64,000 bases of DNA from Leptolyngbya sp. CCY15150 (GTDB lineage: Bacteria > Cyanobacteriota > Cyanobacteriia > RECH01). The stretch spans positions 124,001-188,000 of the forward strand of contig NZ_JACSWB010000207.1 of assembly GCF_016888135.1 (NCBI RefSeq), in the 5' to 3' direction. The translations under genes and the position numbers were made by a program. Positions 42,393 through 45,925 of the stretch are shown here, one piece after another. Position 1 is the first letter of the stretch. Each line of letters opens with the position of its first letter. Under the pieces are notes generated by a model. That model was given only the letters and a program-made list of their open reading frames with translations, did not search any database and was not told where the DNA came from.

Positions 42393-42719
42393 TTAGGAGC
42401 CTCCGACTTCGATGACTTGCCCCGGTGAAATTGTGGTCAACACACTACAAACGTCAGGCATCAAAGGTACTAAATCTGGTAATCGATTACTGCGTGCTAC
42501 AAGAACAACGACTGCTACTCCAGCTTGCTCTCAATTCTGCTGATACCGCAAATTTTGATCGGTGGTTAGTAGAATCGCGAAGCCTTCTTGGTTCATGAGT
42601 CTCAACAACTCACCATTCTTTTTTCCTGACCATCCCATTTCAACAACTGTTTGTATCTCGTAATCAACCAGTTCACAATTGAGGGGACGTGGGGCGCATT
42701 CATCAAGCAGGATTCGCAT
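42393..42719 (-). pseudogene. DUF5615 toxin-like gene with in-frame TGA
   Basis: Encodes a PIN-like DUF5615 protein, partner of DUF433 antitoxin-like proteins. The frame opens MRILLDECAPRPLN, with the acidic LLDEC motif, and runs 62 codons to TTDQNLRYQQN, then meets TGA at 42531-42533. Reading on in the same frame gives 45 more codons (EQAGVAVVVLVARSNRLPDL...PGQVIEVGGS) to TAA at 42393-42395, which is the normal family C-terminus, for a total near 108 residues as expected. One base change from TTA (Leu) explains it. The gene is therefore whole apart from a nonsense codon. It overlaps the DUF433 gene by 17 bp. The TAA sits in TCCTAAT, a degraded attC-like core box. Confidence 0.82.
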
Positions 42720-42927
42720 AAGTTGTTAGCATTTCCTTTGCTAATTCCAGAGCTGCGATCGCTTGCTCACGCCTAACACTCGGAAAATGATCTAAGAATT
42801 CATCGAGTGGATCACCCGCTTCGAGATAATCGATCAAAGTTCTCATTGGTACACGAGTTCCAACAAAAACAGGAGTTCCTCCCAGAATATCAGGGTCACT
42901 ATGAATAACACGCGCTGTGGCTGTCAT
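42703..42927 (-). CDS. DUF433 antitoxin-like protein
   Basis: 74-residue protein of the DUF433 family, with an N-terminal winged-helix-like fold and typical residues HSDPDILGGTPVFVGTRVPMRTLIDYLEAGDPLDEFLDHFPSV. Proteins of this family pair with DUF5615 nucleases in toxin-antitoxin-like modules and are thought to bind DNA and the partner. The downstream DUF5615 frame overlaps by 17 bp and carries a nonsense codon, so the module looks disarmed. One HIP1 octamer lies inside the gene. It lies 160 bp downstream of the attC site on the same strand as the nuclease cassette. Confidence 0.85.
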   Translation of the reverse strand: MTATARVIHSDPDILGGTPVFVGTRVPMRTLIDYLEAGDPLDEFLDHFPSVRREQAIAALELAKEMLTTYANPA

Positions 42928-43086
42928 ATCAGCTATCCATGAGCAGAGTTCTCTTCAATCTTAGCCTACACTCACTCTCAGAATATTCCTTAGAATTCGT
43001 CGCACCAGCACCAAATGTTGGAATAGCTTTCAACCCAAGTTGCGAACAGATGCGCTTCCGGCTTTGTCACTACTGGAGACTAAGCG

Positions 43087-43172
43087 GCCCAACGGCAAAA
43101 CGCAGCGGCGGCAGATAACCTTGGCAACACCACAAGCGGCTTTCGTCCGTCCGCTGCCGTGAAGTGTTAGGT
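43087..43172 (-). other. integron attC site
   Basis: Read on the minus strand: core box ACCTAAC (R'', RYYYAAC), 8-base spacer, GCAGCGGACGG (L''), central loop of about 35 bases, CCGCCGCTGC (L'), 8-base spacer, GTTGGGC (R', GTTRRRY). L'' and L' are complementary except for one extra A, the extrahelical base that marks the bottom strand in real attC sites. The TAA stop of the nuclease gene lies inside R'', as in many gene cassettes. All parts have the right order and spacing. Confidence 0.8.
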
Positions 43173-44186
43173 TGCGTTTGCTATCAAATCATGGCGTTTG
43201 AATAGGTTGACAAGAAAAGACTCTACTATTATTTCCGCTGCACTCTCGCTACTAAGTTCATAGCCTCCAAATCGATACACTTCATAGCCAGATAGCTTTA
43301 GTCGTCTATCCTCAGCAATCATTTCAGAATATAGCCTGGGACTGGCTATATCTTCTTCAGCATAATGTTGTTTGCCATCAATTTCTATTACTATCCTTAT
43401 TCGATCTGATAGTAAAAACAGGAAATCCATTCTTTGTCGCACCAAGCGACGCTGATCTTGCAACTGCTTCAGTGTATACGGATCATAGTGCAAATAAACT
43501 TGTGGAATTAGAGCAGGCAGTTTCTCTTTTAATGACTCATAGAAATTCTTAAAATAAATCTTCCAAAATAACTTCTCCGGTGCAGAAGTCAATGATTGAG
43601 ACAAACGAGCATATAGTTTTCTGCCAACTTCTATGTCCGATTCTTCATTTAGTTTTTCTCTCTCCCTCCACCAATCAATAAGTTCCTTCCAAAGAAGACC
43701 ATGTGACTTAATGGGACGATCGTATATGAGACAATAAGCAGAATTTTTTACAATTTCAATGTCGTTGCTGACTGAATCAGAGAAAATAATTTCTGGTTTT
43801 GGTCCATTCGCCGCAAAAATCAAATTTTTAACGTTGCTACCTACTCCTAGAGTGGTGAGGTAAACTCTGTAACCATCTTTGTCTACTGCAAAACCATGTT
43901 TTTCGCAAAGAGAGCGTAGTTTTTGTTTCCCCTCATCACCAATCCAACTTATAAGTAATGTATTTTCTAAAACTTTGACAAACTTTCGGATCGACTCCAT
44001 ACTTTCCCAATTTAGGGAGGCGTAATAATCTTCAACAAGCGATCTACGATCACCACTTAAATTCTTTCCTGATTTTCCCTGCTCGATTCCAGCAGCGGTA
44101 AAAATATCATTGATATTACGTATATACAAGTAGATTACGCAAAATTCGCGGAATTCTGTCTTCAAAATCTCGACATTTGGTGTCAC
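43167..44186 (-). CDS. putative defence nuclease: AbiJ-like N-terminus, DUF559-like C-terminus
   Basis: 339-residue protein in an AT-rich gene without HIP1 sites, unlike its neighbours. The C-terminal third resembles DUF559/Vsr-type PD-(D/E)XK nucleases: RQRMDFLFLLSDRIRIVIEI with the metal-binding Asp, then EIDGKQHY (268-275) and GYEVYRFGGYEL. The first 75 residues (YIRNINDIFTAAGIEQGK, SGDRRSLVEDYYASLNW) resemble the N-terminal module of AbiJ-type abortive infection proteins; this match is by eye and less certain. The middle (about 80-200) is unrecognised. GTG start at 44186 with AAGGAG 10 bases upstream. It is the first cassette of the integron remnant, and its stop lies in the attC core. 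Confidence 0.75.
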   Translation of the reverse strand: MTPNVEILKTEFREFCVIYLYIRNINDIFTAAGIEQGKSGKNLSGDRRSLVEDYYASLNWESMESIRKFVKVLENTLLISWIGDEGKQKLRSLCEKHGFAVDKDGYRVYLTTLGVGSNVKNLIFAANGPKPEIIFSDSVSNDIEIVKNSAYCLIYDRPIKSHGLLWKELIDWWREREKLNEESDIEVGRKLYARLSQSLTSAPEKLFWKIYFKNFYESLKEKLPALIPQVYLHYDPYTLKQLQDQRRLVRQRMDFLFLLSDRIRIVIEIDGKQHYAEEDIASPRLYSEMIAEDRRLKLSGYEVYRFGGYELSSESAAEIIVESFLVNLFKRHDLIANAT

Positions 44187-44333
44187 AACGCTATGACTCC
44201 TTTAGGACAATCTAAATTCTCCCTCTAAATTTTAACCATTAGATGAGAAGTAGTTATTCCGCACCCACTAAGAATTTAACACTGAATACCCAGAGATGGG
44301 CTTTCGACTGCGTCTTAACCGATATCTTTAGCG

Positions 44334-44417
44334 ACCTAACAACTTATTAGACTGATCCAATCTGCCCATATACCTCCTACTAGGTGAATAGGCAGATTAT
44401 GGGTCGTCTAATCACCC
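44334..44417 (-). other. candidate attI recombination site
   Basis: On the minus strand GTTAGGT (44340-44334) fits GTTRRRY and marks the 5' edge of the nuclease cassette, 148 bp before its start codon. No matching second core box was found within 200 bp on the other side, so it is not an attC; its place between the integrase remnant and the first cassette fits attI. Next to it an imperfect hairpin (44348-44415, arms with AATCTGCC/GGCAGATT) may mark integrase binding. The outer limits are guessed. Confidence 0.5.
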
Positions 44418-44563
44418 TTTTGGGGTAGATAGGCGGCGAATAATCTGCATAATAGCCCTCTCTAGGGCAGATAGACAGCAAAGATCTGTATATCTGCCAT
44501 TTTATTGCTAGACGTACCTATGCATCACTAGTGTTGTATTGGATACCTGCATGTGGAGCTGTC

Positions 44564-44703
44564 ATGGAGCATCGTCGTTCTAAGAAGCTGCTAGACCAAG
44601 TGCATGAAGCCGTCTGAAGCACTACTCCTGCCGCACAGAGCAAACCTACGTGCAGTGGATTCGTCGCTACATCTTGTTTCACAACAAACGGCGTCCTAAC
44701 GAT
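44564..44703 (+). pseudogene. integron integrase (tyrosine recombinase) 5' fragment
   Basis: ATG at 44564 opens RSKKLLDQVHEAV; the frame then ends at TGA, but one frame over continues LKHYSCRTEQTYVQWIRRYI then LFHNKRRPN. Together these are the N-terminal core-binding segment typical of IntI-type recombinases, with a loss of about 4 bases at 44611-44614 causing the frameshift. Homology stops near 44703; the catalytic domain (R-H-R-Y) is absent. It is transcribed away from the minus-strand cassettes, with the attI-like box in between, matching integron architecture. Confidence 0.78.
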
Positions 44704-44838
44704 CGCTGCCAGCGAACGTTGCCATCCGGTTGTTCAACCACTGCAATTTCCACGGCCGTCAGACCGTAGCCTAGGTTAGGGTCAGCCAAAGATTGATGCG
44801 TCAGCTACAAAGCGCTTCCGCAGTAGATTTTAGAAAAA
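44704..44838. other. spacer between integrase remnant and tRNA-Pro
   Basis: A short minus-strand frame (about 44693-44808) reads LTAVEIAVVEQPDGNVRWQRS and has a protein-like composition. It may be a fragment of another gene joined to the integrase remnant; family not recognised. Confidence 0.25.
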
Positions 44839-44912
44839 TCGGGATGACTGGATTCGAACCAGCGGCCCCTTCGTCCCGAACGAAGTGCGCTACCAAGCTG
44901 CGCCACATCCCG
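44839..44912 (-). tRNA. tRNA-Pro (CGG)
   Basis: Full cloverleaf: acceptor CGGGATG/CATCCCG, anticodon stem CTTCG/CGAAG with loop TTCGGGA (anticodon CGG, codon CCG), T-loop GGTTCGAATCC. Discriminator A; CCA is not encoded. T5 follows directly as a terminator. It sits beside the integron remnant, although tRNA genes are not the usual integron target. Confidence 0.96.
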
Positions 44913-45019
44913 TCGTTAGCACTGAGACATTATAACCTAAGCTGAGATTCTCCGCAGGGGATCTGCAAAACTCAGGAGACTGTTGGTAAAATGAGGGTCT
45001 TGGTAAGAATCAGTAGGTC

Positions 45020-45925
45020 GTGAACGTGACAGTAAAGCCAGAATGGTTACGGGTGAAAGCGCCCCAGTGGCAACGGGTTGGCAGTGTCAAAGACACGCTC
45101 CGTGATCTAGGGCTGAATACGGTTTGTGAAGAAGCCTCCTGCCCCAACATTGGAGAATGCTTCCATCACGGTACCGCCACGTTTTTGATCATGGGCCCCG
45201 CCTGCACCCGTGCTTGCCCCTACTGTGACATTGACTTTGAAAAGAAACCCCAGGCCTTAGATCCCACTGAGCCGACGCGTCTAGCTGAAGCGGTGAAACG
45301 TTTGGGGCTCAACCATGTGGTGATTACGTCGGTGAATCGGGATGACCTGCCCGATGGCGGCGCTTCGCAGTTTATCGGCTGCATTGAAGCGGTGCGGGCT
45401 TTGTCGCCTAAAACCACCATTGAAGTTTTAATTCCTGACTTGTGCGCCAACTGGGATGCTCTGGCGACGCTGCTGTCTGCCCGCCCAGAGGTGCTGAACC
45501 ACAATACTGAAACGATTCCCCGCCTCTATCGCCGGGTGCGTCCTCAGGGCGACTACGATCGCTCCCTTGATCTATTGCGGCGATCGCGGCAGATTGCCCC
45601 ATGGCTCTACACCAAGTCTGGGATTATGGTGGGTCTTGGGGAAACCGATAAAGAGGTGCGGCAGGTGATGCGCGACCTGCGATCGGTGGACTGCGACATT
45701 TTGACGATTGGGCAATACCTCCAGCCCAGCCAAAAGCACCTTGGCGTCCAGGACTTTGTTACCCCGGAGCAGTTTGATGCCTGGCGTGAGTTTGGCGAGA
45801 GCATCGGCTTCTTGCAGGTCGTATCCTCGCCGCTCACCCGCAGTTCCTACCATGCCGAGCAGGTGCAGGCCTTGATGAAGCTCTATCCGCGGGCTGGTAG
45901 TGTAGCTGGGGCGATCGCTGATTAA
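45020..45925 (+). CDS. lipA: lipoyl synthase
   Basis: Radical-SAM enzyme inserting two sulfurs into octanoyl-protein to form lipoate on 2-oxoacid dehydrogenases and glycine cleavage H protein. 301 residues. Both FeS sets are present: auxiliary cluster [12 protein letters not shown] (Cys-x4-Cys-x5-Cys) and SAM cluster CTRACPYC (CxxxCxxC); the C-terminal RSSYHAEQ holds the serine that ligates the auxiliary cluster. Start GTG at 45020 with GTAGGT upstream. Cyanobacteria often carry two lipA genes; which one this is cannot be told here. Confidence 0.96.

Follow-up and report, generated by a model that had tools for sequence, protein, structure and literature searches.

Integrons are elements which capture genes. 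They and their attC sites are already known from cyanobacteria (PMC8618304, PMC8352920), and anti-phage activity of integron cassettes was shown, according to a review summary, in Vibrio and in mobile integrons (Darracq et al., Kieffer et al. 2025; PMC12409362). The cassette of Leptolyngbya sp. CCY15150 described here is like those in being small and in carrying one gene, although it is a candidate only; by the same summary, it differs in belonging to a cyanobacterial relict integron.

Its product would appear to be best compared in layout with Shedu, i.e., as a single-gene nuclease with a swappable sensor. Shedu (SduA) is likewise one gene with a C-terminal PD-(D/E)XK nuclease and variable N-terminal domains, and E. 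coli SduA (8ps5) is among the structural matches of the protein. Some SduA proteins carry the AbiJ_NTD3 domain of the long form of the nuclease family, as was seen on a plasmid of Streptomyces angustmyceticus (L116, 1459–3528). In contrast to SduA, the protein gave no match to SduA_C (PF14082) at E 10 and belongs to a DUF559 family with its own middle. Proteins of the Abi_C (PF14355) "abortive infection family" possess an N-terminal module homologous to residues 9–106, but their effector is the Abi_C domain, whereas the present protein ends in a PD-(D/E)XK nuclease and gave no match to PF14355. Among proteins with AbiJ_NTD3 (PF18860), three relatives (L005, L011, L012) share the core of the nuclease, while the Leptolyngbya protein has another front module. 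With DUF559 (PF04480) and EDxHD, Vsr-like nucleases the nuclease domain is in common; a middle starting with KNLIFA and an exchangeable front end are added here.

No model of PADLOC 2.0 matched the nuclease at E 10, and the core of six relatives was likewise unmatched. NCBIfam contained no match to the family, and in the literature no paper was found which names AbiJ together with DUF559. An earlier note on this DNA had stated that no described system with the same arrangement was known to its author, which agrees with these searches. The family is without a name in PADLOC 2.0 and NCBIfam, and may have received one later in newer defence catalogues.

The cassette and its decayed integron

The window, i.e., the whole stretch of DNA analysed (64 kb), contains the nuclease gene on the minus strand at 43167–44186. 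Its frame of 339 codons, the length given in the earlier note, is intact and starts with GTG; the ribosome-binding-like motif AAAGGAG is situated 5' of the start, and the frame ends with TAA within the first attC box. With a GC content of 0.376, versus 0.542 for the window, the gene is AT-rich, and it is free of HIP1 sites, both as described before. Given 155 HIP1 sites in the window, the cassette by itself is only mildly unusual in having none (p ~0.05); the HIP1-free gap of 2.8 kb at 42763–45579, taken as a whole, is unusual (p ~0.001).

The nuclease gene is carried on one true integron cassette of 1247 bp (43093–44339, minus strand), which extends from the T of G/TTAGGT to the G of the attC end G/TTGGGC. 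The recombination core GTTAGGT at the cassette start (44334–44340, minus strand) comprises the first bases common to the window, Leptolyngbya ULC077 (L002), Aphanothece hegewaldii (L003) and genome G143, and the attC site of 86 nt (ACCTAAC ... GTTGGGC; 43087–43172, minus strand) is kept at the cassette end in ULC077 and A. hegewaldii. Cassette DNA was 93% identical in ULC077 and 85% in A. hegewaldii, and the nuclease proteins were 94% and 88% identical, respectively, to the window protein. Similarity of the DNA spanned 43082/43083 to 44255 (ULC077) or 44340 (A. hegewaldii) and ended there, the flanks being unrelated; the mobility by context which the earlier note had proposed is thus evident from two other cyanobacterial genomes that share this unit and nothing beyond.

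In the multiple alignment every copy, including a truncated one from G143, started with GTTAGGTYGCT, and the cassette end ...TTGCCGTT was common to the window and the two full copies elsewhere. The own genome has a relative of the attC site at C147:149–216, ULC077 has three further ones and G237 has one; these are 78–88% identical. An attC at the 3' end and G/TTRRRY cores bounding the unit, which define an integron cassette, were therefore found with support from three genomes and from attC siblings, in line with the cassette origin suggested earlier. The folding energy of the attC site was not unusual compared with shuffled sequences (z ~0; the arms do pair), so that the cassette status rests on the genome comparison and not on folding. 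The copy in G143 (C3:499164–500074; L015, L110), 92% identical, is truncated after about 61 codons and flanked by an intI remnant.

A remnant of an integron integrase gene, intI, is present at 44611–44712 on the plus strand, divergent from the cassette. It comprises 34 residues, reads LKHYSCRTEQTYVQWIRRYILFHNKRRP in one frame and matches positions 10–43 of TIGR02249 (E 3e-6); its place on the opposite strand is as expected for intI by its first cassette. In the own genome no TIGR02249 match over the cut-off was obtained, i.e., neither an intact integrase nor a complete integron was found. The integron holding the cassette has decayed, and since the adjacent integrase is decayed, the cassette is probably sedentary in this strain.

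Other relict elements were noticed as well. A second one in the own genome (C147:149–2454; L109) consists of the attC-like site at 149–216 and an N-terminal intI remnant at 2263–2454; between them lies a gene of 222 amino acids with a weak HEPN (RiboL-PSP-HEPN) match, which is perhaps another defence cassette. Contig C292 of this genome has, at 71217–71393, a third remnant resembling the N-terminal part of intI, which contains two stop codons. ULC077 possesses a partial integron integrase (G387:C135:50–646, L089; positions 116–314, 317 bits) on a contig other than that of the cassette.

Among the three cyanobacterial copies of the nuclease gene (window, ULC077, A. hegewaldii), dN/dS was 0.11–0.13, and the gene is under purifying selection. 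A promoter scan for the gene gave no signal exceeding chance, and within the window no annotated defence system adjoins the cassette. Just 3' of it a pair of DUF433 and DUF5615/PIN-like genes (42531–42927, minus strand), likely a toxin-antitoxin system, was observed; beyond this pair no second attC was recognised.

Front end, middle and nuclease domain

The N-terminal module (residues 1–110; 43857–44186, minus strand) is mainly helical in the AlphaFold (AF2) model, with pLDDT values mostly of 66–87. Using the front-end profile (A4) and hhalign, residues 9–106 matched the N-termini of Abi_C proteins with 98.3% probability (E 2e-14, 97 columns), and the proteins matched by this profile carry PF14355 at their C-termini. 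The link was found by way of a frameshifted cyanobacterial gene (L016) and actinobacterial plasmid proteins; the N-termini of the cyanobacterial Abi_C proteins which were compared first are unrelated to the front end. By profile homology, the front end is identified as an abortive-infection type module, as found before Abi_C.

The AbiJ-like front end of the earlier note held in part: the abortive-infection type was correct, but the affiliation with AbiJ was not supported. Residues 1–110 or 1–118 alone gave no AbiJ_NTD match, and AbiJ_NTD3 proper compared with the front-end profile reached a probability of only 5%. With the whole protein, Pfam reported AbiJ_NTD3 weakly at residues 102–138 (22.1 bits, cut-off 32.5). 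In split tests the signal came mainly from residues 113–138 and persisted after removal of the N-terminus; thus, it stems largely from the beginning of the conserved middle, where the final 26 positions of PF18860 align. A relation of the front end to the 90-residue module that leads the long form was rejected too (2% probability).

The middle (residues 114–197; 43596–43847, minus strand) is characterised by the pattern KNLIFA..GPKPEI..D...NDIEIVKN...GL....L..WW, whose columns were invariant in sets of 11 and 23 relatives. It had been called unrecognised, but it belongs, strongly conserved, to a widespread and unnamed family.

For the C-terminus (residues 198–334; 43185–43595, minus strand), profile, predicted fold and conserved residues point to a PD-(D/E)XK nuclease domain of the DUF559 type, as had been proposed. 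Residues 190–334 alone scored 21.7 bits with DUF559 (cut-off 20.6), while the whole protein scored 19.3 bits at 249–313, below the cut-off; 18 of 23 relatives matched DUF559 at E 0.01 or better. The motif EIDGKQHY, already noted at residues 268–275, is largely invariant among relatives. All of 23 relatives have D254, E268, D270, H274 and R294, and more than 90% have E204; these six are the predicted active-site residues, their catalytic roles being putative.

In the AF2 model, pLDDT was 81.5 overall and reached 87.1 over the nuclease domain. The top Foldseek matches were mainly PD-(D/E)XK enzymes, namely ACE1 (Argonaute-associated, Cas4-type), Card1 (probability 0.98), SduA, TnsA (0.91) and NGO0050 (0.97, TMt 0.68); the EDxHD nuclease I-Bth0305I was also among the matches. 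Since all E values exceeded 0.001, the fold assignment rests on probability and consistency and not on one strong match. A search of the PDB by sequence gave no match to the protein. By profile, model and conserved residues, the C-terminus is assigned to the DUF559-type PD-(D/E)XK nucleases with a predicted fold.

Relatives, exchanged front ends and neighbouring genes

The core, i.e., middle and nuclease domain (residues ~114–334), is 50–59% identical in distant bacteria (Actinobacteria and Clostridium). For residues 114–331, identity with Rhodococcus, Nocardia, Ornithinimicrobium and a Clostridium MAG was 51–57%. Relatives were found on 74 plasmids; within the phylum of the host the family is sporadic (9 of 386 genomes). 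Matches were obtained at 29 loci in IMG/VR contigs, which are candidate phage genes, and among phage records no relative of the protein (P0001) was found.

At least three front ends are joined to the core: the present type, a short type from Actinobacteria, and a long type in which a leading module is combined with AbiJ_NTD3. The present type occurs also in L014 and in an Ignavibacteria relative (L004); beside the latter gene, which was considered as a possible cassette, no attC was found. The long-form relatives L005, L011 and L012 combine the core with a full AbiJ_NTD3, a front end which elsewhere precedes Abi_C, the SduA_C of Shedu or a McrB-like AAA/ATPase domain. In cyanobacteria, AbiJ_NTD3 was seen joined to a McrB-like AAA domain (L064, 1483–2799) and to unrecognised C-terminal regions (L061, L062). 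Judged by these comparisons, the core represents a widespread unnamed family, whose sequence is kept across phyla while N-terminal modules are exchanged.

Some 16 plasmid loci were viewed with flanks of 8 kb. About 8 of the 16 had a named gene for defence, restriction-modification, abortive infection or a toxin nearby, and two further loci had an adjacent helicase; about six relatives had no recognisable annotated defence gene within 8 kb. One relative is a neighbour of Avs1 and another of DUF1837 with a helicase, a Hachiman-like pair, and of Lit. At separate loci Doc/REase, a CBASS cyclase, a type ISP RM system, and a methylase with a helicase were found. In plasmid pBJ86 of P. aeruginosa the gene of the relative overlaps qatD (Qat) by 4 nt, and in Streptomyces S1D4-14 a core nuclease gene adjoins, divergently, an Abi_C gene with the present front-end type. 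Plasmid relatives are often located beside defence genes, which suggests a defence role.

Predicted role of the nuclease

Since plasmid relatives often adjoin known anti-phage systems, we regard the gene as a probable, so far unnamed, defence gene of bacteria. The product of the cassette is likely to be a one-gene defence nuclease whose front end is sensor-like, in agreement with the earlier proposal of a candidate defence gene. This prediction is favoured by the cassette ends, attC siblings, intI remnant and purifying selection, and by the type of the front end, its exchange, the defence neighbours and the nuclease fold. It is disfavoured by the roughly six relatives without defence neighbours, the Foldseek E values, the lack of a PADLOC 2.0 match and, in the window, the missing annotated defence neighbour and the promoter scan.

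Sensor and effector would share one chain, since the cassette holds no partner gene. The N-terminal module could sense a phage or plasmid signal, or mediate assembly; either event might release or position the nuclease, which would then cut invader DNA, or host DNA as in abortive infection.

A toxin or addiction gene, mainly holding the cassette or array in place, would be another function, given that integron cassettes commonly carry toxin-antitoxin genes (PMC8618304). However, the cassette of 1247 bp lacks an antitoxin-like second gene, and relatives also exist as stand-alone genes, one of them in operon-like contact with Qat; this role is unlikely. The Vsr-like character of DUF559 and the structural match to I-Bth0305I would be compatible with a DNA-repair or mismatch endonuclease acting on host DNA, in which the N-terminal module would serve for contacts with other proteins. 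Such a role appears quite unlikely in view of the sporadic distribution, the location on plasmids and a cassette, and N-terminal modules common to abortive-infection and Shedu proteins. A catalytically dead remnant, either regulatory or without function, could be suspected next to a decayed integrase and with a second copy truncated in G143, but is very unlikely for a gene with an intact frame, D254, E268, D270 and H274 in place and the low dN/dS values. A homing or mobility endonuclease spreading its own gene is highly improbable despite resemblance to the catalytic domain of an EDxHD homing endonuclease (3r3p, TMt 0.53), since mobility here is via attC/intI, the gene lies outside any intron, intein or conserved target gene, and Pfam recognised no other DNA-binding domain in the whole protein.

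Beyond the likely single-gene defence nuclease of this cassette, the core might constitute an undescribed, phylum-crossing group of single-gene anti-phage nucleases, with a sensor pool shared with Abi_C, Shedu and McrB-type effectors, and with integrons as one route of spreading; we put this at slightly less than an even chance. Should the N-terminal modules prove to be exchangeable phage sensors, the occurrence of the same module before unrelated effectors would provide a direct route to what each of them senses. Anti-phage integron cassettes would then be extended to cyanobacteria, and many plasmid genes which are now annotated as "hypothetical protein" would obtain a function.
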